Source of the DNA: Flavobacteriaceae bacterium
Lineage (GTDB): Bacteria; Bacteroidota; Bacteroidia; Flavobacteriales; Flavobacteriaceae
Length of the DNA: 64,000 nt
Assembly: GCA_004762155.1 (NCBI GenBank)
Contig: SIHP01000001.1
Coordinates: 496,001 to 560,000 of the forward strand
Direction: 5' to 3'
Shown: positions 35,288-63,099 of the stretch, in pieces
Numbering within the stretch: the first letter of the stretch is position 1
Layout of the letters: each line of letters begins with the position of its first letter
The notes under the pieces: generated by a model
What the model saw: the letters and a program-made list of their open reading frames with translations, nothing else
Database searches by the model: none
What the model was told of the DNA's origin: nothing
Translations under genes and position numbers: made by a program

Positions 35288-35339
35288 ATTCTTTCGCGAA
35301 GAATAGACAGAAGCCTTAAATGTCTTTAAACAATTAGGG
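35288..35339 (+). promoter_or_regulatory. conserved pseudoknot RNA element, copy A
   Basis: Three pairings: a first hairpin ATTCT/AGAAT (35288-35292 and 35300-35304), S1 AGACA/TGTCT (35305-35309 and 35321-35325), and S2 CCTTAA/TTAGGG (35314-35319 in the S1 loop with 35334-35339). The ATG of the peptide gene is 23 nt downstream. Other copies at 59499, 62436, 62766 (partial) and 63050 have different S2 sequences that still pair. Confidence 0.7.
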
Positions 35340-35362
35340 ATAATTAACTTTAAATTTTAATA

Positions 35363-35548
35363 ATGAAAAAATCAATTTTAAATTTAGGAAAACCCCTAAA
35401 CAAAAAAGAACAACAAACTATTAATGGTGGTACTTACTATTGTTCAAATGGAAGCCAAGCTTTAGTAGCATGTATAAATGGTGAATTTGTAGGTTTTTGC
35501 CGTAATGGAGGTATATTTTCATACGTTATCGCTCCTTATTGTCCATAA
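35363..35548 (+). CDS. double-glycine leader peptide, 4 cysteines
   Basis: A 61-residue peptide with a 23-residue leader (MKKSILNLGK ... EQQTINGG) and a 38-residue core with 4 Cys. The leader is nearly identical to those of the seven other peptides in the window, and GG at 22-23 is the processing site of C39-peptidase exporters. The core is rich in Gly, aromatic and small residues and has no match I know. It lies 20+ kb from the exporter at 60207. Likely secreted as a bacteriocin-like or signalling peptide; that is inference. Confidence 0.85.
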   Translation: MKKSILNLGKPLNKKEQQTINGGTYYCSNGSQALVACINGEFVGFCRNGGIFSYVIAPYCP

Positions 35549-35576
35549 ACCTTAAACAACTTTTAAATTATTTATT

Positions 35577-35735
35577 ATGAAAAAATCAATTTTAAACTTA
35601 GGAAAAAGCCTAAACAAAAAAGAACAACAAACTATTAACGGAGGAAGATTAGACTGTATTGGTTATATTAACGGATATCGTACATGTATAGATTTTGGTC
35701 TACAATGTGCTCAATTTGAATGTCAAATACTTTAA
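35577..35735 (+). CDS. double-glycine leader peptide, 4 cysteines, short
   Basis: A 52-residue peptide missed by length filters. The leader has the same MKKSILNLGK start and INGG end; the 29-residue core RLDCIGYINGYRTC...CQIL has 4 Cys. It follows the preceding peptide gene by 28 nt with no RNA element of its own, so the two are one transcript. The terminator at 35760-35795 ends it. Core unlike the neighbour, consistent with two products from one message. Confidence 0.8.
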   Translation: MKKSILNLGKSLNKKEQQTINGGRLDCIGYINGYRTCIDFGLQCAQFECQIL

Positions 35736-35759
35736 TCTTTTATTTAAACGATAAAAAGA

Positions 35760-35795
35760 AAAGTGAGAGAAGTATTTCTCTCACTTTCTATTTTT
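35760..35795 (+). terminator. terminator of the two-peptide transcript
   Basis: Arms AAAGTGAGAGAA (35760-35771) and complement (35776-35787), loop GTAT, then a T-rich stretch (CTATTTTT). Its GTGAG stem resembles the hairpin ending the peptide run at 63574. Confidence 0.85.
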
Positions 35796-35891
35796 AAATA
35801 TATTTTTTATTTCCACAAACTATACAATAAGCTTTTTCACATTGTTTTTCAGACAGCAAAAGCTTATTCATTTAATATTAAAATATCTATT

Positions 35892-37526
35892 TTACATTAA
35901 ATTAATATCCTCAATACTTTGTATTCTATTTCTTTCTAAAAAAGCATCAATCGTTTCAAAATGCTCTATGACACGTTTGTTTTTAAACTCAAATACTTTT
36001 TGAGACAAACCTTGTAAGAAATCACGATCATGAGAAACTAAAATTAAAGTCCCATCAAATTCTAATAATGCTTCTTTTAAAACATCTTTTGACTTTAAAT
36101 CTAAATGATTCGTAGGCTCATCTAAAATTAACAAATTTACAGGCTCTAATAATAACTTTACCATTGCCAATCTTGTTTTTTCTCCTCCAGATAAAACACT
36201 TACCTTTTTTTCTAAATCATCTCCAGAAAACATAAAACGTCCTAAGATATTTTTTATTTGAGTTCGAACATCACCTTCAGCAACCTCATCAACTGTTTGG
36301 AATATAGTTAACTTAGGATCTAATAACGAAGCTTGATTTTGTGCAAAATACCCAACCTTAACATTATGTCCTAACTGACACGTACCTTCGACTTCTATTT
36401 CATTTAAAACAGCTTTAATCATTGTTGATTTTCCTTCACCATTTCTTCCAACAAAACAAACTTTCTCTCCTCTAGCAATAGACATATTAGCATCTTTAAA
36501 AACAACAGTCTCGCCATAAGATTTAGCAACATCTTTTACTGTTACTGGATAATCTCCTGATCTTGGTGATGGCGGAAAACGTAATTTTAATGCCGAGTTA
36601 TCAACTTCGTCAATTTCTATAATTTGTAACTTCTCTAACATGCGTTCTCTTGAAGAAACTTGATTTGTTTTAGAATATGTTCCTTTAAAACGTTCTATAA
36701 AAGCTTTATTATCTGCTATAAATTTTTGTTGTTCTTGGTAAGCTTTTATTTGATGCGATCTTCTTTCTTCTCGTAATTGTAAATAATGTGTATAATTTGC
36801 TTTATAATCATAAATACGTCCCATAGTAACCTCAATAGTTCTATTGGTTATGTTATCTATAAAAGCTCTATCGTGTGAAATTACCATTACGGCATTGGCT
36901 TTATTTACTAAAAAATCTTCTAGCCAAATAACAGACTCTATATCTATATGATTTGTTGGCTCATCTAATAAAATCAAATCAGGTTTTTGTAGTAAAATTT
37001 TTGCCAACTCTATTCGCATACGCCAACCACCACTAAACTCTTTTGTTTGTCTGGTAAAATCTTCTTGTTTGAACCCTAAACCTTTTAAAGCCTTTTCAAC
37101 CTCAGCATCATAATTAACTTCTTCCAAAGCATAAAACTTTTCTCCTAAATCCGATACCTTTTCTATAATTTTCATATAAGAATCACTCTCATAATCAGTA
37201 CGTGTTTCCAATTCTTTGTTTAAAGCATCCATTTCATCACGCATTTCAAAAACTTGTTTAAATGCTTTAGCTGCTTCTTCAAAAACTGTACAATCGTCTT
37301 CCGTTAACAAATGTTGTGGCAAATATGCAATTACTGCTTCTTTTGGAGTTCTTACATGACCTCTTGTAGCTTTTTGAGCTCCAGCCACAATTTTCATCAT
37401 GGTAGATTTCCCTGCTCCGTTTTTACCCATTAAAGCAATTTTATCTGTAGGATTTATAACAAAATTAACATCGCTAAACAAAGTGGTTCCGCTAAATTCC
37501 ACGGCTAAATTATCAACTGAAATCAT
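35892..37526 (-). CDS. ABC-F family ATPase
   Basis: A 544-residue protein with two ATPase domains and no membrane segment. Domain 1: Walker A GKNGAGKST, signature FSGGWRMR, Walker B LILLDEPTNHID. Domain 2: GRNGEGKST, LSGGEKTR, LLILDEPTNHLD. ABC-F proteins act on the ribosome (translation factors such as EttA or YbiT) or give antibiotic protection. The linker and C-terminus do not look like an antibiotic-resistance type, so a housekeeping factor is more likely. Independent transcription. Confidence 0.93.
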   Translation of the reverse strand: MISVDNLAVEFSGTTLFSDVNFVINPTDKIALMGKNGAGKSTMMKIVAGAQKATRGHVRTPKEAVIAYLPQHLLTEDDCTVFEEAAKAFKQVFEMRDEMDALNKELETRTDYESDSYMKIIEKVSDLGEKFYALEEVNYDAEVEKALKGLGFKQEDFTRQTKEFSGGWRMRIELAKILLQKPDLILLDEPTNHIDIESVIWLEDFLVNKANAVMVISHDRAFIDNITNRTIEVTMGRIYDYKANYTHYLQLREERRSHQIKAYQEQQKFIADNKAFIERFKGTYSKTNQVSSRERMLEKLQIIEIDEVDNSALKLRFPPSPRSGDYPVTVKDVAKSYGETVVFKDANMSIARGEKVCFVGRNGEGKSTMIKAVLNEIEVEGTCQLGHNVKVGYFAQNQASLLDPKLTIFQTVDEVAEGDVRTQIKNILGRFMFSGDDLEKKVSVLSGGEKTRLAMVKLLLEPVNLLILDEPTNHLDLKSKDVLKEALLEFDGTLILVSHDRDFLQGLSQKVFEFKNKRVIEHFETIDAFLERNRIQSIEDINLM

Positions 37527-37674
37527 AGTATTGTTTTAAAGTTGCAAAACTACTTGATACACTTATAATCCGCAAACTTTTTACATATCACTATTTTATA
37601 AATAACCTATAAAAAAATCACTACCTATAAAAAAGGTAATGAATTGGTTATATTATAATACAGAAAGGCTTCTA

Positions 37675-38810
37675 CTAAATTTTTAAGAATATTCTTTTTT
37701 TGTAGAGTAAATTCAAGAAAAGAAATAATACTATTAAAAAAGAACAAGTAAACGCAAAAGAACTCCATTTAGGATTTGAAATAAAATACTTGAAAAATTC
37801 GTAACCAAACATACGTATTGATAATTCTTTAGCTATTAACATATCAAAAACAGGTATTAACATATTACTTAACATAAAAGCCACAATTGCGTTAGCTCCA
37901 TATACTATAAACGGATAAAGTATTTTTTTAGTAACCAAATACTTTGTTAATAAAAAACGTATGAAAGCCAACAACAATATAGAAAAACCACTGCTTAATA
38001 ATACAAAACTACTTGTCCATATTTTTTTTATTGCAGGCATTACATTAAAATAATCTAAACTAAAACCTAAGAGAAGTAAAAATGCACCCAATACAAAAAG
38101 TAGTCTAGTTGTATATTGATTTTTATTTCTGGTATAAAAAACACCTATTATTAATCCAAATATAACATTAACACTAGCAGGAAATGTAGCTAAAAGACCT
38201 TCAGGATCGTAGGTTACTTTTCCATTTGTAGTTCCGTATTCCCATAAATGATGAACTCCAAAAATGTTTTGATCTATAATAACTGGCCAAGAATTATATG
38301 AGTTATCACCAGTTACACCAATTCCTGACACAGGAATATGATATAATACCCAATTAAAATGAATATTGATAAAATGATTAGCCATAACTCTACTCTAATT
38401 ACTTTTTTATATTTTAAAAGTAACCATACACTTGCTACAATAAAATAACACAAAGCAATACGTTGTAAAACTCCTGGGATTCTAATATTTTGAAAATTGT
38501 AAAACGGAAAACCATTGACTAAAAGCCCGAAAAGAAAAAGTAAAATTGTTCTTTTTATAACTTTTGCAAACAACTTAGTATTATCATATTTTTCTTTTTT
38601 ATGAAAAGAGATCACCATAGAAAGACCAACACAAAACAAAAAACTAGGAAATATCATATCTGAAAGCGGATATCCGTGCCATGCAACATGATTCATCCAT
38701 TCAAATCTATGAGACCAATTTCCTGGAGTAATGACTAATATCATTCCTAGAATACTTAAGCCTCTTAGAACATCTAATTCAAGTATCCTTTTTTTTATTT
38801 TAGATAATAT
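37675..38810 (-). pseudogene. nagX-like (DUF5009/heparan-alpha-glucosaminide N-acetyltransferase) gene, frameshifted
   Basis: Two overlapping frames carry one protein. The N-terminal part, from about 38810 to 38313, has ELDVLRGLSILGM, TPGNWS, WHGYPLSDMIFPSFLF and IRIPGVLQRIAL; the C-terminal part (38385-37675) has IPVSGIGV and membrane helices to the end. They join near 38340 only with a one-base shift. In addition, the conserved N-terminus has no ATG in frame: ATA stands at 38808-38810, and the first ATG falls inside LSILGM. Two lesions suggest an inactivated gene, or a sequencing error plus a rare start. Confidence 0.75.
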
Positions 38811-38938
38811 TTATATGGTTTTTCAAAACTTCTTAAAAAACAAAACGATTTTTATTCTCCCGTCTTTCAATGCGATTTATATCAACCACTTAACTATTAA
38901 CACACCAATAATTCAACACATCTCTTTTAAAACTTTAT

Positions 38939-40762
38939 TTACTTTTTATCATTATAATACTTCTGTAGTACATAAAAAGCTTTTTTCTTTTCTCCTTTTT
39001 CCGACATTAATCCTTTTCTATTCCAACCATCTTGTATTTCTGGCAATACTCGTCTTGGCGATTTAAAATCAACCAAAACCCATGGAGAAACACCTCTTAG
39101 TTGTTTTACTTTATCTATCATCTTTAAGGTTTCTTGATACAAATACTCTTGGTATTCTTCATTCCATCTAGCATCTTTTTCGCCATGCAAACCAAACTTA
39201 GCTCCTGCTCCAAATTCAGAAATCATCACAGGTTTATCATATTCAATATTCCAACTGATTGTTTTACATTTTTCTATACCACCATCATACCAACCAATGT
39301 ATTGATTGAAACTTAAAATATCTACCACTTCTGCAAATGAATCATGAATAGTTCTCACTTTTGGATTCCCTTTATAATCACTTTGTTCTAAAGCAGCACT
39401 AATTAAACGTGTTGGATCTTCTTGTTTGGTATATGTTGCTAATTTGTTTAAAAAAGCATTTCGCGCATCGCTTGTAGGTGTTTCGTTTGCCATTGACCAA
39501 ATAATTACGCTTGCTCTATTTTTATCTCTTGCAATTACTTCTGACAATTGATTTTTTGCATTTAAAAAAGTAGCTTCATTATCCCAAGAAATTGTCCAAT
39601 ACACAGGATTTTCTTCCCAAACTAACATTCCCATTTTATCTGCCAAACGCACCATATGTTCGTTATGCGGATAATGTGCCAAGCGAACATAATTACAGCC
39701 TAATTCTTTCGCCCAAAGCAGTAAAGTTTCAGCATCTTTTTTAGAATTTCCTCTTCCTCCGTTAACAGGACTTTCTTCATGAATAGAAATCCCTTTTAAA
39801 AACACAGACTTATCATTTAATAAAATATCAGCACCTTTTGTTTTTATAGTTCTAAAACCAATTTGATCCGTTACTTCATCATCTTTTGTACTTAGTGTTA
39901 CCGAATACAAATACGGATTTTCCAAAGACCAATATTTTATTTTACTAGAGGCAATACTAAAATCAATCTTTCCTTTATTATTAACTGTATAGGTTTCTTT
40001 TATTTTTAATTCAGGAATATTTACTGTAACCTTTTCATATTTTTTGCTCTTTCTATTTAAAGTAATTTCCCCACTTATCTTTTTTTTATCCTTAGGATCC
40101 AATTGAATAAAATAATCTTGTATAAATCCTTCGCTTGTTTCTACCAACTTTACATCTCTTGTAATTCCTCCATAGTTCCACCAATCTGTATTTAAGGTTG
40201 GCACCGCATCTTTATGTCTTTTATTATCTACTTTTACAACTAAAAAATTATCTTTTTCTTTTAATAATTCCGTTATTTCAAAATTAAAAGGCGTGAATCC
40301 ACCAATATGTTTCCCTAGTTTTTTTCCGTTTAAATACACATCTGTTTCGTAATTTGAAGCTCCGAAATACACGAAAACACGATTTTGTTTTTCTGATTTA
40401 TTATAGTTAAATGACTTTTTAAACCAAACCGTTCCTTCATAATATAACAAGTTTTCTTTTTGAGTATTCCAATCACCAGGAATAGTAATACTACCCATTT
40501 TATCAAAATCATACTCAATTAAGTCTGATTTTTTTTTAGCCTTAGAATTCGTGAAAAATGCTGAAGTACTAGGTTCTTTTTGATTTTCAAATGGTTGATA
40601 CCTGTAATTATAAAAACCGTTTTCATAAGGATCAATAATATATTTCCATTGTCCGTTTAACGATGTAGTTTCACGATTATACGTGTTTATTATTAACTTT
40701 TCTTGTGCGTAAATAGTTACACTCTTCCATAAAATTATAAAGAGAATATATTGTAGTTTCAT
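38939..40762 (-). CDS. glycoside hydrolase family 2
   Basis: A 607-residue protein with signal peptide (ending YAQ). It has the GH2 sugar-binding domain, Ig-like middle domain and TIM barrel. Acid/base E427 in WSMANETP and nucleophile E516 in ISEFGAG are visible, as well as the conserved RLAHYPHNE. Similar to beta-glucuronidase or beta-galactosidase type GH2; length is short, without extra C-terminal domains. Last intact gene of the PUL, 119 nt after the GH16 gene. Its substrate in a beta-glucan locus is unclear. Confidence 0.9.
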   Translation of the reverse strand: MKLQYILFIILWKSVTIYAQEKLIINTYNRETTSLNGQWKYIIDPYENGFYNYRYQPFENQKEPSTSAFFTNSKAKKKSDLIEYDFDKMGSITIPGDWNTQKENLLYYEGTVWFKKSFNYNKSEKQNRVFVYFGASNYETDVYLNGKKLGKHIGGFTPFNFEITELLKEKDNFLVVKVDNKRHKDAVPTLNTDWWNYGGITRDVKLVETSEGFIQDYFIQLDPKDKKKISGEITLNRKSKKYEKVTVNIPELKIKETYTVNNKGKIDFSIASSKIKYWSLENPYLYSVTLSTKDDEVTDQIGFRTIKTKGADILLNDKSVFLKGISIHEESPVNGGRGNSKKDAETLLLWAKELGCNYVRLAHYPHNEHMVRLADKMGMLVWEENPVYWTISWDNEATFLNAKNQLSEVIARDKNRASVIIWSMANETPTSDARNAFLNKLATYTKQEDPTRLISAALEQSDYKGNPKVRTIHDSFAEVVDILSFNQYIGWYDGGIEKCKTISWNIEYDKPVMISEFGAGAKFGLHGEKDARWNEEYQEYLYQETLKMIDKVKQLRGVSPWVLVDFKSPRRVLPEIQDGWNRKGLMSEKGEKKKAFYVLQKYYNDKK

Positions 40763-40810
40763 TTAATTTAAATTTTGAGTCTTAAAAAAATAGTTTGATT
40801 AAATTATTTA

Positions 40811-40862
40811 TAAAAAAAACATTCATTAAACTATTTTACTTTTAGCATAATGAATGTTTTTT
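40811..40862 (-). terminator. minus-strand terminator after the GH16 gene
   Basis: Arms AAACATTCATTA (40817-40828) and complement (40848-40859), followed by a T run when read on the minus strand. The transcript from SusC to GH16 may partly end here, leaving GH2 to a weaker read-through or own promoter. Confidence 0.75.
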
Positions 40863-40881
40863 ATATTAGGGGTTTTTATTT

Positions 40882-41679
40882 TTAAATGTTATAAACCCTT
40901 ATGTAGTCTATTTGAAAATCTTTTGGAAAAATAGACTCATCAACTTCTGGGCCTCCAAAATTTCCTCCAATAGCCATATTTAAAATAAGATAAAAAGGTT
41001 TGTTATAAGGCCAAGTTTTGTCATTCTTGTCTTTAGGCGCGTATTGATAAACTTCTTTATTATCTATAAAAAAAGTAATAGCATCTTTAGTCCAATTCAT
41101 CTTATACACATGAAAACCTTCTTCTATATTTTGAATTGAGGTTTGTTTTGAATTAACAGTATTACCAAAACTTGAAGATGTATGCATTGACGTATAAATA
41201 ACACTCGGTTTTTTACCAACATACTCCATAACATCAATTTCACCACAAGCTGGCCAACCTTTTGTATCAATATCATTTCCTAACATCCAAATTGCTGGCC
41301 ATAAACCATGACCTGTTGGCAGCTTTGCTTTTACCTCAACAGTACCATATTGAAACTCGAAATTTTTCTTTGTATGAATTTTCCCTGAATAATATAACGA
41401 ATCTCGTTTTGTAGCTTCTATAAGAAGTTTCCCGTCTGATAATGTTACATTTTCTTTACTATACAATTGACGTTCATTATTTCCCCAACCACAAAGGTTA
41501 GGACAACCATCTCCTAAATCATAATTCCAAGTTGCTGTATTTAATAAGGAATCATTAAATTCTTCTTCAAAAATCAACAACCGTTCTTGCTTAACTTCTT
41601 CTTTACTTGCTGTCTTTTCTTTTTCGTTACATGAAAACAAAAAAACACCTAATAATAGTATTACATAACTTACTTTCAT
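40882..41679 (-). CDS. GH16 beta-glucanase (laminarinase-like), lipoprotein
   Basis: A 265-residue lipoprotein (lipobox FSC, C17). The GH16 catalytic motif is E147-I-D149-V-M-E152, within WMLGNDID...CGEIDVMEYVG, the laminarinase form. It follows GH3 with a 4-nt ATGA overlap, a tight translational link. Predicted to hydrolyse beta-1,3(-1,4) glucan at the surface or in the periplasm. A second, larger GH16 in this PUL (44099) suggests stepwise attack on the polymer. Confidence 0.92.
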   Translation of the reverse strand: MKVSYVILLLGVFLFSCNEKEKTASKEEVKQERLLIFEEEFNDSLLNTATWNYDLGDGCPNLCGWGNNERQLYSKENVTLSDGKLLIEATKRDSLYYSGKIHTKKNFEFQYGTVEVKAKLPTGHGLWPAIWMLGNDIDTKGWPACGEIDVMEYVGKKPSVIYTSMHTSSSFGNTVNSKQTSIQNIEEGFHVYKMNWTKDAITFFIDNKEVYQYAPKDKNDKTWPYNKPFYLILNMAIGGNFGGPEVDESIFPKDFQIDYIRVYNI

Positions 41680-44015: not shown

Positions 44016-44036
44016 ATAATTTGAAAGGATTTAAAA

Positions 44037-44073
44037 AGAGATTGGTAATTAATAACTACATATTACCAACCTC
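44037..44073. repeat. hairpin between GH16 and GH3 genes
   Basis: Arms AGAGATTGGTAAT (44037-44049) and the near complement (44062-44074) with one mismatch, loop 12 nt. No T run, so more likely an mRNA processing or stability hairpin than a terminator. Confidence 0.5.
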
Positions 44074-44098
44074 TACTACTTAAACATAAAATTATTTT

Positions 44099-45748: not shown

Positions 45749-45766
45749 ACTTTATGTTTTAAGGTC

Positions 45767-47815: not shown

Positions 47816-47829
47816 AATGCTTGTTTTTA

Positions 47830-49305: not shown

Positions 49306-49315
49306 TTCTTAATTT

Positions 49316-52300: not shown

Positions 52301-52354
52301 TGCTTGTATTAGACTGCACATTAATATGGATAATAATAAAATTAGTTTTCTCAT
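49316..52354 (-). CDS. SusC/RagA-type TonB-dependent receptor
   Basis: A 1012-residue outer-membrane protein: signal peptide (ending IQA), carboxypeptidase-regulatory-like domain (about 23-100), plug domain starting after VVIGYGSKAKKDVTGAV with GVTINTPSSAPGS, and a 22-strand barrel ending with a terminal aromatic (GLNLAF). Imports oligosaccharides with energy from TonB/ExbBD. With SusD it defines the PUL. Upstream 52382-52552 is an intergenic spacer whose promoter I cannot place. Confidence 0.95.
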   Translation of the reverse strand: MRKLILLLSILMCSLIQAQKINVTGTITDALTGEPIPGAIVLILNSSKGAQADFDGKYTIESAKGEVLEFSSLGYTTKKITVDKSVINVMLDEDLEQLGEVVVIGYGSKAKKDVTGAVSLVSSETIEELKPVDASLALQGTTSGVTINTPSSAPGSRFDINIRGISSNGNNQPLVVIDGLAGADLNTLNPNDIESISVLKDAQAAIYGIQGANGVVLVKTKSGRKNTKIKITYDGYTGVQETTKKLNYLNATEYALLLNEGYAAGGQTLPFANIGSLGEGTDWQDEIFSTAFMINHNVGVSGGSERVNYYIGASRLEQDGIISPDKSNFIRNNVRLTLGVDLSDKFRLTSTTNYTTFETKTLSDNGLGSVLFNALNYSPTFSLDQEDEDGFLGNEVINPLSQIRDTYNENYGKNLEGAITLDYKPTDDLKVTTRVGYKSFNDKSKDFLPIVDYGSGKVFNRDRSQVDQNRTTSNNYNWETFVNYKKLFSNVHKLEATLGTSIQKSWGDGLYATGFDVPNNSYDFADISLTTGTNDGLSNSAYVFDNRLLSYFARLQYDYNGKYLLSGMIRRDAASDFTANNRVDYFPSVTGGWKVSEESFMENIEFIDFFKIRGSYGILGNNTGGNLFRADLDGEATYVLDGVIVNGLAIGDLPNENATWERAEKLDIGFDLNLFSKKLEIVGDYFIEDRNDLLVSNIPVSGILGAEAPGSSSPTVNAGTTKVKGFEFSINYKDQIGEDFYYNLNYNFTTIKGEVTKINGDVVIEGGGFGVGQLAPSRMEVGQPIGYFYGLQTEGVFQTVEEVNNAPSQSGLLGIDAAPGDIKFVDTNQDGVIDFNDRTFIGNPQPEFIMGLNLGFNYKNWDFTTYMYSELNKDMVRNYERDQPNVNRLAYYLNRWTGQGTSNEVPRATTGATNNKLFSSFYVEDASFLRIQNVQLGYSLPESVLSKIGFSKVRLYTTVNNLFTFTNYKGYDPASSGGSQNDDGSVSPIGRGIDNGVYPVSRQYLLGLNLAF

Positions 52355-52552
52355 ATATAGAGTGGTTTTAAACTTTCCATAAAAATAATGTGTTTTTATT
52401 GCATTTTAACAAAAAAACAACAATACAAAAAACATACATCTTAAAATTTTATGATTTTCTTTAGAAAGCCAAAGAAAAAAAAGCAGTTTTAATGTTAAGA
52501 AAAAGCAAATGTTGTGGTTATGTATGGTTAACAAAACCATATTGTAGTGTTG

Positions 52553-55354: not shown

Positions 55355-57010
55355 TTAAGAGAAATATATATAAATAAAGATAACGATTATACAAATTAGA
55401 GCTCCAGCTTGTTTTGTATATTTCCATGGAGTAATATCTACTTGTTTACTTTCTTTTTGAACATATGCCACTTTCTTTGGATTAAATTTACCAATTAAAA
55501 TCATAAGTACACTATTTAACACAAAAAGTATTGCCATAACATGTAAAAAATGTGGATAGGCAGTGGCTCCAGCTAAAGCTATAACCTCTTCTGAACCACC
55601 CAAGCCTTTTGCTTCTGCAATAGCACTATTAACAAAAGATGGCCTAAGAAAAAACTCACTTATTATATATAATATTGATCCTGAAAACAGCCCTATTTTA
55701 GCAGCAATTGCTGGTACTTTTTTAGTTACAAAACCAACAAAAATTATAGTTAAAATAGGAATACTATACACACCGTTTACTTGTTGTAAATAAGAGAATA
55801 TACTTTCTAAGCTAGATAAAAAAGGAGCAATAATCATTGCAGTAATAGCTAAAATTATACCGAAAGTTTTCCCATACTTAACAACCGTTTTTTCATCGGC
55901 CTGTTCATTAATATGTTGTTTATAAATATCAATTCCAAATAAAGTTACAGAACTATTTAACACACTATTAAAAGAACTTAAAATTGCACCAAAAATTACT
56001 GCTGCAAAAAAACCAACTAACTCTTTTGGTAAAATTTTCCTTACTAATTCTCCATAAGCTTCATCTGGAGAGCTAACATTTAAAGTTCCATTTAAAGACA
56101 TATAATAAGCTACAACTCCAGGCAAAACAACAATAAGCGGTCCTAATATTTTAATTGACGCCCCTAATAACAATCCTTTTTGTCCTTCTTGAAGATTCTT
56201 AGCTCCTAATGCACGTTGTATAATTTGTTGATTTGTTCCCCAATAAAAAACTTGTACTAACATCATTCCTGTAAAAATTGTTGCAAATGGTACAGATGCA
56301 GATGCACTTCCTATTGAATTGAAATGAGCTGGAATTTTTTCTTGCAACAATGAAATACCATCCATAACACTTCCGTTTCCAACAAATAAAAGTCCAAAAA
56401 ATGGAATTAAAATTCCACCAATTAACAAACCTACTGCATTTATTGAATCTGAAACTGCAACCGCTTTTAAGCCACCAAATACTGCGTAAATAGAACCAAT
56501 AATTCCAATAGACCATACACACAACCACAAGGCAGTACTTTTTGATACTCCCAACAAAGCTGGAACATCAAACATACCGCTAATTGCTAGGGAACCTGAA
56601 TATAAAATTGTTGGTAAAAGTACTACTGCATAGCCGGTTAAAAACAATGACGAGGTTAGTGTTTTTGTTGTAACATCAAATCTTTCGGCTAAAAACTGAG
56701 GTATGGTTATTAAACCACTTTTTAAATACCTTGGCAATAAGAATACGGCTGTAAAAACCATGGCAATAGCTGCTAATGTTTCCCAAGCCATTACTAGTAT
56801 ACCTTCAGAAAAAGCTGCTCCATTAAGACCAACTATTTGTTCTGTAGATAAGTTTGTTAGTAAAAGCGAACCAGCAATTACACCTGCTGTTAGACTTCTA
56901 CCGCCTAGAAAATAACCTTCGGAAGTTTCTTCGTTTGTTTTTCTTGTTGCATACCACGATACAACCGCTACAATTATTGTAAAGCCTAAAAAAGATAAAA
57001 TTCCTAACAT
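55355..57010 (-). CDS. sodium/solute symporter (SSS family)
   Basis: A 551-residue inner-membrane protein with about 14 helices. SSS motifs include EGYFLGGRSL, SLLLTNLSTEQIVGLNG and FYWGTNQQIIQRALGAK. It likely takes up a sugar (glucose or oligosaccharide) with Na+. Its stop is directly before the regulator start (55355/55354), so the two genes are coupled. Upstream region 57011-57850 has no clear minus-strand promoter. Family membership is clear; substrate is by context. Confidence 0.92.
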   Translation of the reverse strand: MLGILSFLGFTIIVAVVSWYATRKTNEETSEGYFLGGRSLTAGVIAGSLLLTNLSTEQIVGLNGAAFSEGILVMAWETLAAIAMVFTAVFLLPRYLKSGLITIPQFLAERFDVTTKTLTSSLFLTGYAVVLLPTILYSGSLAISGMFDVPALLGVSKSTALWLCVWSIGIIGSIYAVFGGLKAVAVSDSINAVGLLIGGILIPFFGLLFVGNGSVMDGISLLQEKIPAHFNSIGSASASVPFATIFTGMMLVQVFYWGTNQQIIQRALGAKNLQEGQKGLLLGASIKILGPLIVVLPGVVAYYMSLNGTLNVSSPDEAYGELVRKILPKELVGFFAAVIFGAILSSFNSVLNSSVTLFGIDIYKQHINEQADEKTVVKYGKTFGIILAITAMIIAPFLSSLESIFSYLQQVNGVYSIPILTIIFVGFVTKKVPAIAAKIGLFSGSILYIISEFFLRPSFVNSAIAEAKGLGGSEEVIALAGATAYPHFLHVMAILFVLNSVLMILIGKFNPKKVAYVQKESKQVDITPWKYTKQAGALICIIVIFIYIYFS

Positions 57011-57850
57011 AAGATTTGATTTATTTAATCAATGAAAATAGTAATTAATTAATGTTTTTTTTACAATATTAATAACTGTATGGTTTTTATATAGGTATTA
57101 ATTACTCAAAAACACAACAAAAAAACACTATAATACTCTGTTAAAAAGAAACTTAGAGTCAACTATAAAAAAACTAATGTATAGTTCTTTTTTCAATGTG
57201 AATTGTTTTTTAAATTTAAAAATCTTACGAATTTAATAAAAAAACACTTAAAAATTAACACATACACTACAAAAAAACATCTATTTTATCAATTTAAAAA
57301 CCAAACCAAACAAGAACTAAGAATACCTAACATTTAACACCACATTTAATATAGATTTTACCGAATACACATTACTCCTACTTTTAAATAATTAAGCATC
57401 AAATATTAGTGCAAAAAATAAAATGCTTTTCACAATCAATTTAAACACTATAAAAACAAAATTCTATTCTTAAGTAAAACAGGAAAGAACTAAATAATTT
57501 AAAAAAGAGTGTGTATCAAATTTAACTTTTACAAATAACTTATCAAATACCTAAGAAAAACTAATCTATTTTCAAATTTCACTTACATGTTAAAACAAAA
57601 AAGTATTGATTTAAAATTATAATATTTTATTTGCGTTTCAACTTCTAATTTTAAACAAAAATTCATTTTAACAAAAAAAAAACAACCATTTACACTATTT
57701 ATAATCATTTTAATGAACAACAATAAACACAATTATACATAACAAAAAAGGTTAAAACCTGTTAATTATTAAAAAATATAGGGTTTTTAATAAAAATAAT
57801 ATATTTTTGTATACAACTACTATCTATATTTAATTTAAATAAAAATCGTT
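57011..57850. other. 840-nt AT-rich divergent spacer
   Basis: Between the PUL and the peptide locus. I see no ORF, repeats or hairpins worth naming; the TATTTTTG at 57802-57809 is the only promoter-like box. Composition changes little from neighbours. Confidence 0.5.
57802..57809 (+). promoter_or_regulatory. putative -7 promoter element TATTTTTG of the peptide locus
   Basis: Matches TAnnTTTG and lies 41 nt upstream of the TTG start of the VKOR fusion gene. A -33 box is not visible. Confidence 0.4.
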
Positions 57851-59449
57851 TTGAAAAGCAACTTAACTTATCTAGTACAAAAGTTACTATCGAAGAATAA
57901 GATTCCTTTTGACAAAGAGGAACTTTCATTTCAAATTCAGAGTCACCCGTCTTACCCTAGCTTACATGCTATTACAGGTGTCCTAGATCATTTTAACATA
58001 GAAAACATTGCAGCTGATGTACCAGCAACTTCTGAAGTACTTCAACAATTACCCAATTACTTTATAGCGCAAGTCTCAAACGACAATAGTTCAGACCTTG
58101 CTCTTGTTGAGAAAAAGAAAGAAAAATATATTATTTATCTTTCTGACAATCAAAAAGAAACAGTATCTGAAGGCGAATTCATCATAAAATTCACAGGAAT
58201 TATTGTTGCTGTTGAAAAATCTGAAGAAGAAGAAAAAAACAACTTAAAAATAAAAAGCAGCATATGGAAGAACATTTCTATAGCTATTTTAAGCCTTTTT
58301 GCATTAGCTTTCATCTATCAAAAAGGTGCCTCATTATATACTATTACTTATTTAATTCTTTCTGTTATTGGTTTTACAGCAAGTATTGCTATTATAAAAC
58401 AAGAACTTGGATTAAAAACAACTATTGGAGATGCTTTTTGCTCAGGTGCAAATGACAAAAAGGATTGTGATGCTGTTTTAACTTCAAAAGGTGCTGAAAT
58501 AATTAAAGGCTACAAACTAAGTGATTTTAGTCTTCTTTATTTTTCTGGAATTTTGTTATTAACGTTTACACAAATTATTAACCCTGTAATTCCTTTCACT
58601 TTTAGTTTAATAGCTATCCCAATAACATTATACTCTATATATTACCAATATGCTGTAGTAAAAAAATGGTGTATGTTATGTTTAACAATTGTTGGCGTAC
58701 TATGGTTACAAGCTTTAATTCCAGTACTAACTAATAGCTATATCACTACATTTATCACCAATGATATTATTGTTTTTGGATTAGTATCTTTTACTATTCT
58801 TTTAGCCTGGAATTATCTAAAGCCATTAATTACTGATGTTAATCAGCTGAAGAAAGAAAAAATAGAGAATGTGAAATTTAAAAGAAATTACACACTTTTC
58901 GAAAGCTTACTTCAAAAATCTTCTACAATAGACACAAACATAATCAATGGAAGAGAAATTATTTTTGGAAACAATAATGCTGATTTAGAAATAACAGTGA
59001 TTACGAATCCTTTTTGTGGACATTGTAAACCTGTTCATTCTCATATTGATGAAATATTACACAGATACAAAAACCAAGTAAAAATTAAAGTTCGTTTTAA
59101 CATTAATACCCAAGATTTAAATAGTGACGCCGTTAAAATAACTTCTAGACTTTTAGAATTATTTGAAACAAAAGGAGAGGTTGAATGTTTAAAAGCTATG
59201 GATGACATATATGGTGGTGAAACCCCTGAAAATTGGTTTAAAAAATGGGGAGAATGTATTGCTATTAAAACATATAACGAAGAATTGGAAAAAGAAAACA
59301 CATGGTGTAAAGACAATGCTATTAACTTTACCCCTGAAATTCTTATTAATGGAAAATCTTATCCTAAAGAATACAACAGATCTGATTTAATCTTTTTTAT
59401 TGAAGATATACACGAAAATACTACTAATAATACAGTTATTAATCTGTAA
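57851..59449 (+). CDS. C39-like / VKOR / thioredoxin fusion protein
   Basis: A 532-residue membrane protein that starts at TTG; there is no closer ATG that keeps the domain. Residues 1-125 resemble a C39 peptidase but have no catalytic Cys (HPSYPSLHA at 32-40). Residues 140-325 form a VKOR domain with several helices, loop cysteines C197 and C206, and the active CxxC C274-M-L-C277. Residues 350-532 are a DsbA/thioredoxin-like domain with C389-G-H-C392. It should oxidise thiols outside the cytosol. Placed beside Cys-rich peptides and their exporter, it may form their disulfides. Confidence 0.88.
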   Translation: MKSNLTYLVQKLLSKNKIPFDKEELSFQIQSHPSYPSLHAITGVLDHFNIENIAADVPATSEVLQQLPNYFIAQVSNDNSSDLALVEKKKEKYIIYLSDNQKETVSEGEFIIKFTGIIVAVEKSEEEEKNNLKIKSSIWKNISIAILSLFALAFIYQKGASLYTITYLILSVIGFTASIAIIKQELGLKTTIGDAFCSGANDKKDCDAVLTSKGAEIIKGYKLSDFSLLYFSGILLLTFTQIINPVIPFTFSLIAIPITLYSIYYQYAVVKKWCMLCLTIVGVLWLQALIPVLTNSYITTFITNDIIVFGLVSFTILLAWNYLKPLITDVNQLKKEKIENVKFKRNYTLFESLLQKSSTIDTNIINGREIIFGNNNADLEITVITNPFCGHCKPVHSHIDEILHRYKNQVKIKVRFNINTQDLNSDAVKITSRLLELFETKGEVECLKAMDDIYGGETPENWFKKWGECIAIKTYNEELEKENTWCKDNAINFTPEILINGKSYPKEYNRSDLIFFIEDIHENTTNNTVINL

Positions 59450-59464
59450 TGATTTATAAAGAAC

Positions 59465-59486
59465 AAAGCTCCTTGCGGAGCTTTGA
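59465..59486 (+). terminator. hairpin after the VKOR fusion gene
   Basis: Perfect arms AAAGCTCC (59465-59472) and GGAGCTTT (59477-59484), loop TTGC; a weak T stretch follows (GACTTTTG). Probably a terminator that lets the following peptide have its own transcript, or an attenuator. Confidence 0.65.
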
Positions 59487-59498
59487 CTTTTGAACAAA

Positions 59499-59550
59499 AT
59501 TCTCTCGCGAAGAATAGACACACTCAGTGAGTGTCTTTAAATGTTCGCTG
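59499..59550 (+). promoter_or_regulatory. conserved pseudoknot RNA element, copy B
   Basis: First hairpin ATTCT/AGAAT (59499-59503/59511-59515), S1 AGACAC/GTGTCT (59516-59521/59531-59536), S2 CAGTGA/TCGCTG (59525-59530/59545-59550, one G-U pair). S2 differs in most positions from the CCTTGA/TCAAGG copies yet pairs. The ATG is 25 nt downstream. Confidence 0.75.
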
Positions 59551-59575
59551 CAAATATAATTTTATATTTTTAATA

Positions 59576-59785
59576 ATGAAAAAATCAATCTTAAAACTTG
59601 GAAAAGCTTTAAAAAAGGCTGACCAAAAGGAAGTGTTTGGAGGAGCGCCCTCTCTCTCTTGCTATGGAAAAACCCCAGGAAGTTCTTGTGGTACAAGTAC
59701 AGGATATGTTTGTTGCTACCCTAGATATACTACTGATTATCTTTACTGTACAAGTCTTAGCTCTAGTAATTGTCTTTTACCTTAG
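59576..59785 (+). CDS. double-glycine leader peptide, 6 cysteines
   Basis: A 69-residue peptide starting at the ATG at 59576; longer starts upstream lie in the RNA element. Leader MKKSILKLGK ... EVFGG with GG at 22-23; core of 46 residues with 6 Cys, one pair adjacent (VCC). The leader is slightly divergent (KADQKEVF). First peptide after the VKOR gene. The high Cys number and the neighbouring oxidase domain support disulfide bonds. Target or activity unknown. Confidence 0.88.
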   Translation: MKKSILKLGKALKKADQKEVFGGAPSLSCYGKTPGSSCGTSTGYVCCYPRYTTDYLYCTSLSSSNCLLP

Positions 59786-59897
59786 GACCTTAACAAAACA
59801 TCAAACTCGTTACAAAACTATTATTTGATTTAAATATTCAATTCATAAATTTAATTATAATAATAATTTGTTATTAATTTTAAAACTAAAATTTATC

Positions 59898-60119
59898 ATG
59901 AAAAAATCAATTTTAAAACTTGGAAAAGCATTAGACAAAAAAGAACAAAAAGAAGTAAATGGTGGTTCATTAACATCTTTTTGCCAATATACATGTAGCG
60001 GTACAACAGCTAGACTTGCTTCTGGAAGTAGCACATACTGCTTATTAAATTACCCAGCAATAATTCGTGATTCTCCAATGTGCGGAGGAGGTGGCGGTGG
60101 AATTGATATTTGGGCATAG
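59898..60119 (+). CDS. double-glycine leader peptide, 4 cysteines, glycine-rich tail
   Basis: A 73-residue peptide; ATG at 59898 chosen because the leader MKKSILKLGK ... EVNGG starts there. The core has 4 Cys and a run of six glycines (CGGGGGGIDIWA) near the end. It lacks the RNA element, has a 112-nt spacer from the previous peptide, and is followed by a hairpin and then the exporter gene. The glycine run is not found in the other cores. Confidence 0.85.
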   Translation: MKKSILKLGKALDKKEQKEVNGGSLTSFCQYTCSGTTARLASGSSTYCLLNYPAIIRDSPMCGGGGGGIDIWA

Positions 60120-60159
60120 AATTTTCTTCTAAAAAAAAACAATCAATCCATTAAAAAAC

Positions 60160-60184
60160 AACTGGAAAGTTTAACTTTCCAGTT
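60160..60184 (+). terminator. hairpin between peptide and exporter genes
   Basis: Arms AACTGGAAAG (60160-60169) and complement (60175-60184), loop TTTAA. It has few T after it, and the exporter's TTG start is 23 nt downstream. It may be a partial terminator or an RNA structure lowering exporter expression relative to peptides. Confidence 0.6.
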
Positions 60185-60206
60185 ATTTAATAAAACAAAA
60201 AATTCC

Positions 60207-62393
60207 TTGAAAAAATTTCCAAATTACCAACAAACAGAAGCTAAAGATTGTGGCCCAACATGTATTAAAATAATCGCCAAACATTATGGTAAAACAATTA
60301 ATACACAACAACTCCGTAAACTTAGCGAAACAACTAGAGAAGGTAGTAGCCTACTTGGCTTAAGTGAAGCTGTCGAATCTGTTGGCTTTAAATCACTTGG
60401 AATTAAACTTGCTTTTAATAAATTTTTAGAAGCTCCCTTACCCTGTATTGTTCATTGGAACAAAAACCACTACGTAGTAGTGTATAAAATAAAGAAAGGC
60501 ATTGTATATGTATCTGATCCTGCTCATGGATTAATTACATATACTATTAAAGAATTTTTAAAATTTTGGATTGGTAATAATGCCGATGAAAACACTGAAG
60601 ATGGTATTGCACTATTAATTGAACCTACTCCTAAATTTTACCAAGAAGATTTTGAAGATGATGAAAAGTTTGGATTCTCATTCATCTTTAAATATCTTTT
60701 TAAATACAAAAAATTTATTGTTCAATTAATTATTGGACTTTTAGCCGGAAGTATACTACAATTAATTCTTCCTTTCTTAACTCAGAGTGTTGTTGATGTT
60801 GGTATTAAAAATCAAGACATTAACTTTGTATATCTAATTCTTTTTGCACAACTATTCCTTTTCATTGGAAAAGCTTCTTTAGAAATTATTCGTAGCTGGA
60901 TTTTACTACACTTAAGCACAAGAATTAACATCTCTTTAATTTCTGATTTCTTTATAAAGTTAATGAAACTACCTATTTCTTATTTTGATGTAAGAATGAC
61001 TGGAGATTTATTACAACGAATTAATGATCATAAACGTATTGAACGAATACTTACAACCTCTTCATTAACCGTATTATTTTCTTTCTTTAATCTTATTATT
61101 TTCAGCTTAGTTTTAGGCTATTATAGTGTACAGATTTTTGGAGTTTTTGTACTTGGTAGTGTTTTATATTTTGGTTGGGTATTATTTTTCTTTAAAAAAC
61201 GTAAAGAATTAGATTACAAACGATTTTCGGAGGTCAGCCAAGAACAAAGTAAAGTTATTGAGCTAATTAACGGAATGCAAGAAATTAAACTTCATAACGC
61301 TGAAAAACGAATGCGTTGGAACTGGGAATATGTACAAGCTCGTTTATTTAAAGTTGCCACAAAAAGTTTAGCCTTAGAGCAAACACAAAGTGTTGGATCT
61401 AATTTTATCAATGAACTTAAAAACATGTTCATTACTATTTTATCTGCAAAACTAGTAATTGATGGTGATATCACTTTAGGTATGATGATGGCTATTAGCT
61501 ATATCGTTGGTCAATTAAACGGTCCTATTGTACAACTTATTAATTTTATGAGAGATGTACAAGATGCTCAAATATCATTAGACAGACTTGGTGAAATCCA
61601 TAACATGGAAGATGAAGAAAAACCTGGAGATGAAAAACTAACAACTATTCCTGATAATGCAGCTATAAAATTAAATAATATCTCTTTCAGATATACTGGC
61701 GGATTAGAACCTGTTTTAAACAACCTTTCTCTGGAAATACCAGCAAACAAAATAACTGCTATTGTTGGTGTAAGCGGAAGTGGAAAAACAACCTTAATGA
61801 AGTTGTTATTAGGGTTTTATCATGTTGATAAAGGTGATATTATGATCAATAATTTCAACTTAAAAAACATCTCTCAAAAAGAATGGAGAAGAAACTGTGG
61901 AGTGGTTATGCAAGAAGGATATATTTTTAACGATTCTATTGCTAAAAACATTGCTGTTGGTGAAGACTATGTAGACAAAGAAAAACTTGCTCACGCAATT
62001 GACGTTGCTAATATTGCTGATTATATTGAAGGTTTGCCTTTAGGATACAACACTAAAATAGGGGCTGAAGGTTCTGGATTAAGTACTGGACAAAAACAAC
62101 GATTATTAATTGCACGTTCTGTATATAAAAATCCTAAATTCTTATTCTTTGATGAAGCGACTTCAGCATTAGATGCCAATAACGAAAAAGTAATTATGGG
62201 GAAATTAAATGAATTTTTCTCTAATAAAACAGCTGTAGTTATTGCTCACAGATTAAGCACTGTAAAAAACGCACATCAAATTGTAGTATTAGATAAAGGA
62301 CAAATTGTTGAACAAGGAAGTCATGAAGATCTTATAAAATTAAAAGGAAGTTATTACCATCTAGTTAAAAACCAACTAGACTTGGGTAAATAA
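60207..62393 (+). CDS. C39-peptidase ABC exporter (PCAT)
   Basis: A 728-residue exporter that starts at TTG. The N-terminal C39 peptidase has the triad C15 (in KDCGPTC), H88 (in NHYVVVYK) and D104 (SDP), plus Q9 for the oxyanion hole. Six membrane helices follow (about 170-450), and the C-terminal ATPase has Walker A GVSGSGKTTL (~520), a signature LSTGQ instead of LSGGQ, and FDEATSALD. It cleaves after GG of leaders and pumps the cores out. The eight leader peptides in the window fit its substrates. Confidence 0.95.
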   Translation: MKKFPNYQQTEAKDCGPTCIKIIAKHYGKTINTQQLRKLSETTREGSSLLGLSEAVESVGFKSLGIKLAFNKFLEAPLPCIVHWNKNHYVVVYKIKKGIVYVSDPAHGLITYTIKEFLKFWIGNNADENTEDGIALLIEPTPKFYQEDFEDDEKFGFSFIFKYLFKYKKFIVQLIIGLLAGSILQLILPFLTQSVVDVGIKNQDINFVYLILFAQLFLFIGKASLEIIRSWILLHLSTRINISLISDFFIKLMKLPISYFDVRMTGDLLQRINDHKRIERILTTSSLTVLFSFFNLIIFSLVLGYYSVQIFGVFVLGSVLYFGWVLFFFKKRKELDYKRFSEVSQEQSKVIELINGMQEIKLHNAEKRMRWNWEYVQARLFKVATKSLALEQTQSVGSNFINELKNMFITILSAKLVIDGDITLGMMMAISYIVGQLNGPIVQLINFMRDVQDAQISLDRLGEIHNMEDEEKPGDEKLTTIPDNAAIKLNNISFRYTGGLEPVLNNLSLEIPANKITAIVGVSGSGKTTLMKLLLGFYHVDKGDIMINNFNLKNISQKEWRRNCGVVMQEGYIFNDSIAKNIAVGEDYVDKEKLAHAIDVANIADYIEGLPLGYNTKIGAEGSGLSTGQKQRLLIARSVYKNPKFLFFDEATSALDANNEKVIMGKLNEFFSNKTAVVIAHRLSTVKNAHQIVVLDKGQIVEQGSHEDLIKLKGSYYHLVKNQLDLGK

Positions 62394-62435
62394 ATAAAAC
62401 TGGTTAGACGTAATCGAAACCATAATATTAAAAAT

Positions 62436-62488
62436 ATTCTCTCGCGAAGAATAGACACAAACCTTGAGTGTCTTTAAATATTTCAAGG
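62436..62488 (+). promoter_or_regulatory. conserved pseudoknot RNA element, copy C
   Basis: First hairpin ATTCT/AGAAT (62436-62440/62448-62452), S1 AGACAC/GTGTCT (62453-62458/62468-62473), S2 CCTTGA/TCAAGG (62462-62467/62483-62488). Loop 1 is AAA, loop 3 is 9 nt, good geometry for an H-type pseudoknot. The ATG is 30 nt downstream. Confidence 0.8.
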
Positions 62489-62518
62489 ATTTAATTAAAT
62501 ATTTTAAATCAATTTATT

Positions 62519-62695
62519 ATGAAAAAATCAATTTTAAATTTAGGAAAAACTTTAGCTAAAAAAGAACAAAAAAGCATCAATGGTGGTTTTGGAACTTGTT
62601 TTTGTTTATTACAGGACAGACAAGGAAATTTTTATGCTGAAATTGTAGACTGCTATAGTACTTGTCCTAATGGCACAGATCCTTTACAATACTAA
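62519..62695 (+). CDS. double-glycine leader peptide, 4 cysteines
   Basis: A 58-residue peptide missed by length filters. Leader MKKSILNLGK ... KSINGG, core of 35 residues with 4 Cys (GTCFC and DCYSTC). It follows the exporter gene by 125 nt, with the RNA element in between. A long hairpin at 62708-62745 follows. Core unlike the others; predicted secreted, disulfide-bonded. Confidence 0.85.
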   Translation: MKKSILNLGKTLAKKEQKSINGGFGTCFCLLQDRQGNFYAEIVDCYSTCPNGTDPLQY

Positions 62696-62707
62696 AAATC
62701 AGAAAAA

Positions 62708-62745
62708 CATAATAGTAGTATAATTTTATTAATACTACTATTATG
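62708..62745 (+). terminator. hairpin after a peptide gene
   Basis: Arms CATAATAGTAGTAT (62708-62721) and complement (62732-62745), loop 10 nt. A T-poor tail (GCTTTGTA) makes it a weak terminator. Confidence 0.55.
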
Positions 62746-62765
62746 CTTTGTATTAATTGTAAAAG

Positions 62766-62800
62766 TGACATAAATCTTGAGTGTCTTTAAATATTTCAAG
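62766..62800 (+). promoter_or_regulatory. pseudoknot RNA element, copy D, without first hairpin
   Basis: S1 GACAT/GTGTC (62767-62771/62781-62785, one G-U), S2 CTTGA/TCAAG (62776-62780/62796-62800). The 5' hairpin found in other copies is missing. The ATG is 25 nt downstream. Confidence 0.6.
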
Positions 62801-62825
62801 TTTTAAATTATATAAACAATTTATT

Positions 62826-63023
62826 ATGAAAAAAACAATTTTAGACTTAGGAAAATCACTAAATAAAACAGAACAAAAAAAAATAAAAGGAGGTAACTAT
62901 CCCGACCACGGATCTTGTATGATTGCATGTAGATCAATATATGGTTTTTACGGAGTCTGTTGCCCTGAATCAGGTGAACATGTTTGCTATGACGGCATGG
63001 CTTCAGGCCCAAAAGGATGTTAA
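62826..63023 (+). CDS. double-glycine leader peptide, 6 cysteines
   Basis: A 65-residue peptide; the ATG at 62826 is chosen, as the leader MKKTILDLGK ... KKIKGG starts there. The core has 6 Cys, with one CC pair (GVCC) and the end PKGC. The pattern is broadly similar to the peptide at 59576 (six Cys with a CC) but no sequence likeness otherwise. The RNA element copy lacks the first hairpin. Probably a disulfide-stabilised secreted peptide. Confidence 0.88.
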   Translation: MKKTILDLGKSLNKTEQKKIKGGNYPDHGSCMIACRSIYGFYGVCCPESGEHVCYDGMASGPKGC

Positions 63024-63049
63024 CATACTTAAAACAAAAAACATAAAGA

Positions 63050-63099
63050 AATCTCGAGAAGATTAGACACAAACCTTGAGTGTCTTTAATCATTCAAGG
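63050..63099 (+). promoter_or_regulatory. conserved pseudoknot RNA element, copy E
   Basis: First hairpin AATCT/AGATT (63050-63054/63060-63064), which differs from ATTCT/AGAAT of other copies by compensated changes. S1 AGACAC/GTGTCT (63065-63070/63080-63085), S2 CCTTGA/TCAAGG (63074-63079/63094-63099). The ATG is 29 nt downstream. Confidence 0.78.

Follow-up and report, generated by a model that had tools for sequence, protein, structure and literature searches.

The preQ1-I and SAM-II riboswitches are H-type pseudoknots, and riboswitches of this type use the pseudoknot's 3' strand to mask the ribosome-binding site or to steer a terminator. Structures that process or stabilise mRNA between cistrons form a further known class. 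In the translational operator of T4 gene 32, a pseudoknot is followed by an unstructured A/U-rich leader with the start site, and the gene product represses its own mRNA. Published descriptions cover the mRNA pseudoknot of this operator (PMC535899), the H-type pseudoknot riboswitch SAM-V (PMC6061858) and the STAXI motif, a pseudoknot found as tandem repeats near genes for DNA-binding or DNA-handling proteins (Weinberg 2010, PMC2864571). The element described here is a stretch of about 52 bases with a predicted 5' hairpin and H-type pseudoknot (helices S1 and S2), and it occurs five times in a 64,000-nucleotide (nt) stretch of a Flavobacteriaceae genome (contig SIHP01000001.1, positions 496,001 to 560,000; hereafter the window). 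It is recurrent in marine flavobacteria and more widespread than the five window sites had suggested. The account that we tentatively favour treats each of the five sites as a copy of one recurrent RNA leader which stands about 28 nt before peptide genes and would likely set the frequency at which ribosomes start on them.

A sequence-only reading of the window had placed an element at five sites, and all five are borne out at the positions it gave, each before a gene for a double-glycine peptide (Table 1). The gaps from the end of S2 to the ATG are 23, 25, 30, 25 and 29 nt at sites 1-5, in agreement with the proposed 23-30 nt. The interleaved helices proposed for S1 and S2 are likewise present at all five sites, except that S1 reaches only 5 bp at sites 1 and 4. 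Because sites 3 and 5 have the same S1 and S2, few independent changes are available within the five window copies. In nine copies from the same genome (the five in the window and four found by pattern or reading), 4 double-changed pairs were counted, compared with 1.2 after shuffling.

These nine copies were used to build a covariance model, R1, in which only the 5' hairpin and S1 are paired and S2 is kept unpaired for separate testing. On the window's 4.69-Mb genome, R1 gave 10 matches at E <=1 (the weakest at 7.8e-5), of which L013 is new and the others are the nine seeds; a double-glycine peptide open reading frame (ORF) lies 23-30 nt past S2 in all 10, nine of which are R1 seeds. This genome most likely belongs to Tenacibaculum, since two others of its genus (G383 and G597) have 1-kb stretches identical to Tenacibaculum-labelled contigs. 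Of 299 genomes from the family, the window's own included, 34 have R1 matches at E <=0.05, with a maximum of 19 per genome. A second model (R2), built from the R1 family matches, detected copies (E <=0.001) in 7 of the 395 genomes sampled across the phylum and 12 of the 395 sampled across the order, with samples that overlap and search filters that lose weak matches. Most R2 matches are from the same family; those from other families are L165 and L166 in the order and L145 in the class. The match at L168, which is weak and has no ORF, looks false. A search of named genomes with an exact pattern yielded 52 stretches, which come from Tenacibaculum, Polaribacter, Winogradskyella, Lutibacter, Bizionia, Aquimarina, Dokdonia, Mangrovimonas, Gelidibacter, Croceitalea, Pontimicrobium, Flavivirga, Roseivirga and unnamed Flavobacteriaceae, among others. 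The total is 231 distinct places, mainly in Flavobacteriaceae, with only identical sequences collapsed.

The sequence-only reading had staked its case on covariation in homologs, and this covariation is found. The decisive pairing tests on relatives used 98, 99 and 184 distinct sequences. In a structure-blind MAFFT alignment of the 99 sequences, the six top-covarying of 1326 column pairs all belong to S1 or S2. In a second such alignment, of 184 sequences (members of a set of 230 that differ at more than 2 positions), the top 16 of 1378 column pairs include 10 of the 12 S1/S2 pairs, an enrichment with a hypergeometric probability of 8e-20 if column pairs are treated as independent. The third alignment (A3, 98 sequences) was fitted to the hairpin and S1, but not to S2. 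Here 95.7% of cells are paired, as opposed to 84.1% after shuffling, and both sides have changed in 199 cells, as opposed to 54.8 +/- 5.7 after shuffling and 17-42 after sliding the partner by 1-3 columns; relatedness is kept by sliding and lost by shuffling. Both-side changes affect all six pairs of S2, four of the six pairs of S1 and all five hairpin pairs, with the S1 and hairpin counts leaning upward because A3 was fitted to these two helices. The S2 variants include CCTTGA/TCAAGG, CTGTGA/TCACAG, CAGTGA/TCGCTG, CCTCAA/TTGGGG, CTGTAC/GTACAG and more. Full 6/6 pairing is found for S1 in 190 and for S2 in 211 of the 231 places, counts that lean upward since the placement script seeks the best S1/S2 pairing. 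The compensated 5' hairpin that had also been proposed holds across the relatives, where it takes such forms as ATTCT/AGAAT, AATCT/AGATT, ATCTT/AAGAT, TCCT/AGGA and AGTTT/AGACT; site 4 has no hairpin.

The loop sizes are those expected of an H-type pseudoknot, as had been claimed. In 225 of the 231 places each helix has 5 pairs or more, again with placement by best pairing; among these, loop L1 is 3 nt in 184, loop L3 is 8 nt in 178, and the S1/S2 junction is 0 nt in 224 (only 0 or 1 was allowed by the script). Three unpaired loop bases are nearly invariant: A24 (182/184), A41 (180/184) and A42 (183/184). Conserved, interleaved S1/S2 pairing of the kind that characterises H-type pseudoknots is well supported by the alignments, and the geometry suggests that S1 and S2 form simultaneously. 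Folding of single sequences without pseudoknots gave mixed folds with z-scores of -0.03 to -2.29, which is expected and was not used as evidence. In many relatives, for example L029, L035 and L069, L3 often reads AAATGTTC; the ATG there sometimes shares the frame of the peptide gene and extends the ORF.

S1 and S2 are conserved through G-C, A-U and G-U pairs, and the G-U pairs suggest RNA. A role at the DNA level, either as an operator palindrome with promoter parts or as a recombination site that spreads peptide cassettes, could draw on the dispersal of the copies and on the tip of the 5' hairpin, where the tetraloop is self-complementary in 116 of 198 cases (CGCG in 97, otherwise TGCA and rarely TCGA, TATA or AGCT). 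The first and last loop bases covary, with columns 8-11 at rank 6 in the 184-sequence alignment. However, interleaved helices with G-U pairs and free base changes are unexpected of protein-DNA sites, the distance to the ATG is constant and no promoter motif is conserved, and a DNA-level role is accordingly very improbable. The hairpin tip might also form a kissing dimer, although 97 of the 116 self-complementary tetraloops are the single loop CGCG and other loops, among them TCGC (50) and CGCA (7), occur as well.

The link to double-glycine peptide genes, also claimed from the window, extends to the relatives. An ORF of at least 30 aa starts within 60 nt in 217 of the 231 places, and a permissive pattern finds Gly-Gly close to the N-terminus in 200 of these 217 ORFs; 102 places were also read by eye. 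By eye, 12 of the other 17 have similar leaders with another residue beside or replacing one Gly, and five do not (L059, L131:1954, L155, L160 and L165). The 14 places without an ORF consist of 4 contig-end cuts, the apparent false match at L168 and 9 broken or lost genes. All 12 S1/S2 pairs are standard in 170 of the 217 places with an ORF, but in only 3 of the 9 with a broken or lost gene (p 0.006), in classes assigned by hand after the sequences had been seen and with the contig-cut places L104:36, L103:5, L093:21 and L164:3013 and the weak L168 omitted. Inheritance of a functionless sequence along with duplicated peptide genes would account for the relatedness of the copies, some of which are identical within a genome. 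However, this explanation is scarcely credible, given that pairing weakens beside broken genes and that compensated changes far exceed both the shuffled and the slid controls.

The peptides are likely exported, and are probably bacteriocin- or signal-like. No match was obtained in a Pfam scan of three of them or an NCBIfam scan of seven. Of 30 element-bearing genomes (four weak ones of the 34, G058, G076, G205 and G246, being omitted), 27 have a C39 peptidase domain, as do 14 of a set of 30 without the element; seven of this latter set are from one genus (g128), and the Fisher p is 6e-4 for rows that are not independent. This exporter type therefore occurs without the element too. In the loci, which were chosen for holding elements, upstream sequence suffices for scoring 281 peptide genes, and 168 of them were scored as having an element; of the 113 scored as element-less, 11 start inside L3 according to the ORF finder and actually have the element. 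Presence depends on the gap to the preceding peptide gene: 0/47 below 45 nt, where there is no room, 1/12 at 45-80 nt, 14/25 at 80-120 nt, 18/26 at 120-200 nt, 8/21 at 200-500 nt, 38/42 at 500 nt or more, and 89/108 with no preceding peptide gene. Apparent decayed copies were seen by eye before the element-less genes at L024:2253, L066:1722, L095:3721, L098:6266 and L118:5153.

In 203 of 217 places the start codon follows the end of S2 by 25-31 nt; the median is 28. The intervening linker is A/U-rich, with 2% G and 12% GC, and has A at -3 in 182 of 198 and at -12 in 176 of 198 cases; these positions, including A at -12/-11, are in line with those reportedly identified in a study of start-codon context in F. 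johnsoniae. Compared with shuffles of itself, the linker folds more weakly in 152 of 201 cases and more strongly in 48 (mean -1.2 vs -1.9 kcal/mol).

This arrangement separates the element from the H-type riboswitches preQ1-I, SAM-II and SAM-V, which it resembles as a small H-type pseudoknot in an mRNA leader. Its S2 leaves the start region uncovered, its linker is too poor in G and C for a terminator-like hairpin, and the genes behind it are non-metabolic. A regulated switch, with a small molecule or an RNA-binding protein that binds the pseudoknot at A24, A41 and A42 and controls the peptide set as a whole, would explain both the near-invariance of these unpaired bases and the regulon-like occurrence of up to 19 copies per genome, nearly all before one gene class. 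We consider such a switch rather unlikely, since no masking of the start site is visible and the contacts between loop and groove in a static pseudoknot are also expected to give invariant A's. The T4 gene 32 operator is similar in that, as in the element, an unstructured A/U-rich leader runs from the pseudoknot to the start codon. However, its product is a single-strand-binding autorepressor, whereas here no RNA-binding repressor is seen downstream: the genes are for small double-glycine peptides, of which the three scanned against Pfam and the seven scanned against NCBIfam had no match, and the copies are many and often intercistronic. STAXI is also a pseudoknot motif from comparative genomics, but its tandem copies lie near genes for DNA-binding or DNA-handling proteins.

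The comparison with Rfam suggested by the sequence-only reading covered all 4227 families of Rfam 15, and none matches the elements searched. A scan of the whole window at gathering thresholds, site 1 included, matched only Flavo-1. At E <=5, window positions 59000-63700 gave three sub-threshold models, none of them on the elements, and nine relative loci at E <=1 gave only one miRNA model (E 0.89, below cut-off); preQ1-I, SAM-II and SAM-V are not among the matches in the window or these loci. In the literature on flavobacterial pseudoknots or structured RNAs with bacteriocins or double-glycine peptides, as far as its accessible parts go, no description was found, though a 2017 survey of 224 candidates could hold one. 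The element would thus be an RNA family new to Rfam 15.

The nearest upstream open frame is on the same strand in 199 of the 221 places with enough upstream sequence, divergent in 16 and lacking in 6. Classes of upstream genes were called by tail motifs read off these same loci. Behind C39-ABC-like genes, 18 of 22 elements start within 15 nt of the stop codon, as do 19 of 20 behind HlyD-like genes, whereas only 8 of 31 do so behind VKOR-Dsb-like genes (median 38). As 37 of the 42 places behind the first two types are this close to an exporter-type stop codon, the element lies between cistrons, and a gap of at most 15 nt is too short to hold a promoter unless it overlaps the coding sequence. 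This position makes it improbable that RNA 5' ends fall downstream of the element where a copy follows an exporter stop codon by a few nt. Upstream conservation ends sharply at about -5, with A-rich bases, and no promoter motif is conserved in the stretches above. The flavobacterial -7 box is given as TAnnTTTG (PMC9723704), and this pattern is found in 18 of 221 upstream stretches compared with a mean of 29.9 in 20 shuffles; a sigma-A promoter at a fixed place was therefore rejected as a general feature. Sigma-54-like and CGT patterns in the same 221 stretches are at the shuffled level. Individual promoters at single copies are possible.

A subclass of 45 of the 231 places (subclass A) is marked by a GAAC flank and is represented in the window by 59464-59498. 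The sequence upstream folds at -8 kcal/mol or better in 40 of the 45, and the last upstream stem ends 7-12 nt before the element in 36. In 41 of the 45 this hairpin is not followed by a T-run longer than 2 within the next 8 nt (a few stretches being shorter than 8 nt), and no GC hairpin with a T-run, as in an intrinsic terminator, was seen in the element itself. At site 2, a TTTT at 59488-59491 behind the upstream hairpin makes a weak terminator possible. An A-run often precedes the subclass A hairpin, so that the minus strand resembles a terminator. The linker starts with C[ACT]A[AT][TG] in 35 of the 45 GAAC-flank copies, compared with 32 of the 186 others. GAACA flanks accompany TGTTC in L3/S2b (37/40 vs 82/183, p 1e-8), and L039 combines a GAACG flank with CGTTC. 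However, L085, L088 and L114 have CGTTC without GAACG, which counts against flank/L3 pairing as a switch, and a shuffle test that re-pairs flanks throughout the set gives no significance, as 30 of 200 shuffles attain the observed mean. The association of GAACA with TGTTC may only mark a subclass rather than an alternative-pairing switch.

The closest rival to control of translation starts from these intercistronic features. The exporter-peptide mRNA would be cut in the A-rich stretch immediately before the element, and the hairpin and pseudoknot would shield the new 5' end so that the peptide part outlives the exporter part. The sharp boundary at -5, the A-rich bases and the place between cistrons agree with processing of this kind, and the subclass A hairpin, with its strong fold and few T-runs, might protect the upstream part at its 3' end. 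Known intercistronic processing structures share the place between cistrons and, in the subclass, the upstream hairpin, A-rich stretch and 5' structure; unlike them, the element has a conserved pseudoknot sequence and a fixed spacing to the start codon. Processing or stabilisation needs neither this fixed distance nor a G-poor linker, and as the main role we consider it unlikely, although it could act jointly with control of translation.

Cis-acting control of the translation (or stability) of the peptide cistron is the likely function. From its pairing, gene class, place and spacing, the element is probably part of the RNA, and control at the level of translation is favoured because it explains both the set distance to the start codon and the open linker. 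The element would be carried on the mRNA, often a polycistronic exporter-peptide mRNA, with the pseudoknot just upstream of the position of the initiating 30S subunit and holding the A/U-rich linker open. The peptide cistron would thereby be uncoupled from the exporter cistron, yielding peptide in excess.

Several observations weigh against this account of start-site control. Peptide genes that closely follow another have no element, with a similar start context (somewhat more G, fewer A), so translation as such does not depend on the element; even at 200-500 nt behind another peptide gene only the 8 of 21 noted above have it. Some copies precede other genes, as read by eye: lipoprotein-like genes at L160:2250 and L045 (the latter encoding 175 aa and passing the Gly-Gly pattern though it is not such a leader), a gene for a secreted-looking 114-aa protein at L165, a membrane-peptidase-like gene at L059, and a C39/VKOR-like transporter gene at L155, where the element is degenerate. 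The 16 copies behind divergent genes must have their own promoter, yet none was found among them and no motif is conserved. A role in translation alone leaves the 5' hairpin, the A-rich flank and the upstream GC hairpin of the subclass unexplained. The linkers of sites 2, 4 and 5 could form an A/U hairpin (-0.2 to -1.6 kcal/mol), and the constant spacing could be partly inherited. S1 and S2 might form as mutually exclusive helices instead of together. Finally, tree-based nulls give E <0.05 for only 3 pairs in the 99-sequence alignment and 1 in the 184-sequence alignment, with E values of 0 to 0.84 for the top six pairs of the former and 0 to 30 for the ten S1/S2 pairs in the top 16 of the latter. 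These nulls differ and are rough, and reliance was placed on the ranks and on the A3 test.

To our knowledge, the determinants of strong start sites in Bacteroidota are only partly known. Ribosomes of this phylum do not make the usual use of Shine-Dalgarno pairing (PMC6847099, PMC9976891). It is doubtful, but conceivable, that the element represents a new class of translation-initiation element for bacteria that ignore Shine-Dalgarno sequences, in which an RNA landmark one 30S footprint upstream would give high output of exported peptide inside exporter operons, possibly as a regulon-wide switch. The element would be a strongly covarying structured RNA family that Rfam 15 lacks, tied to a single gene class in marine Flavobacteriaceae, and the fixed-distance pseudoknot and G-poor linker would make start-site strength in Bacteroidota testable with simple reporters. 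The element is also a search handle for short peptide genes, including the seven without an NCBIfam match.

Table 1. Elements and neighbouring genes in the window (E values for elements are from model R1)
Feature	Positions	Strand	Details
Element 1	35288-35339	+	Hairpin 35288-35304; S1 35305-35309/35321-35325 (AGACA/TGTCT, 5 bp, sixth position unpaired); S2 35314-35319/35334-35339 (CCTTAA/TTAGGG); 70.3 bits, E 3.9e-10 (copy itself among R1 seeds)
Double-glycine peptide gene	35363-35548	+	61 aa; behind element 1, ATG 23 nt past S2
Second double-glycine peptide gene	35577-35735	+	28 nt past the first; without element
VKOR-thioredoxin protein, C39-like N-terminal part	57851-59449	+	PF07884 E 2.8e-13; PF13462 E 2.4e-7
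GC-rich hairpin upstream of element 2	59464-59485	+	CAAAGCTCC/GGAGCTTTG; with GAACA flank marking subclass A
Element 2	59499-59550	+	Hairpin 59499-59515; S1 59516-59521/59531-59536 (AGACAC/GTGTCT); S2 59525-59530/59545-59550 (CAGTGA/TCGCTG); E 1.6e-9
Double-glycine peptide gene	59576-59785	+	69 aa; behind element 2
Double-glycine peptide gene	59898-60119	+	73 aa; without element
C39 peptidase ABC exporter	60207-62393	+	TTG start as listed; PF03412 E 8.1e-36; PF00664; PF00005
Element 3	62436-62488	+	Hairpin 62436-62452; S1 62453-62458/62468-62473 (AGACAC/GTGTCT); S2 62462-62467/62483-62488 (CCTTGA/TCAAGG); E 4.6e-12
Double-glycine peptide gene	62519-62695	+	58 aa; behind element 3
Element 4 (reduced)	62767-62800	+	No 5' hairpin; S1 62767-62771/62781-62785 (GACAT/GTGTC, 5 bp); S2 62776-62780/62796-62800 (CTTGA/TCAAG, 5 bp); match 62758-62800, E 1.4e-5
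Double-glycine peptide gene	62826-63023	+	65 aa; behind element 4
Element 5	63050-63099	+	Hairpin 63050-63064; S1 63065-63070/63080-63085 (AGACAC/GTGTCT); S2 63074-63079/63094-63099 (CCTTGA/TCAAGG); E 1.1e-8
Double-glycine peptide gene	63129-63299	+	56 aa; behind element 5
Double-glycine peptide gene	63370-63549	+	59 aa; without intact element
HlyD-like secretion protein (putative name)	63651-63998	+	Start only; window end cuts gene

The VKOR-thioredoxin protein upstream of element 2 is probably associated with the exporter. Its C39 score of 20 bits is below the family cut-off of 22, and the C39-like stretch may bind leaders without cutting them. The HlyD-like gene at the window end has a weak match to TIGR03794 (E 0.028, below the family cut-off). 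The Flavo-1 RNA (RF01705), a known family unrelated to the elements, is located at 26035-26108 with 60.7 bits.

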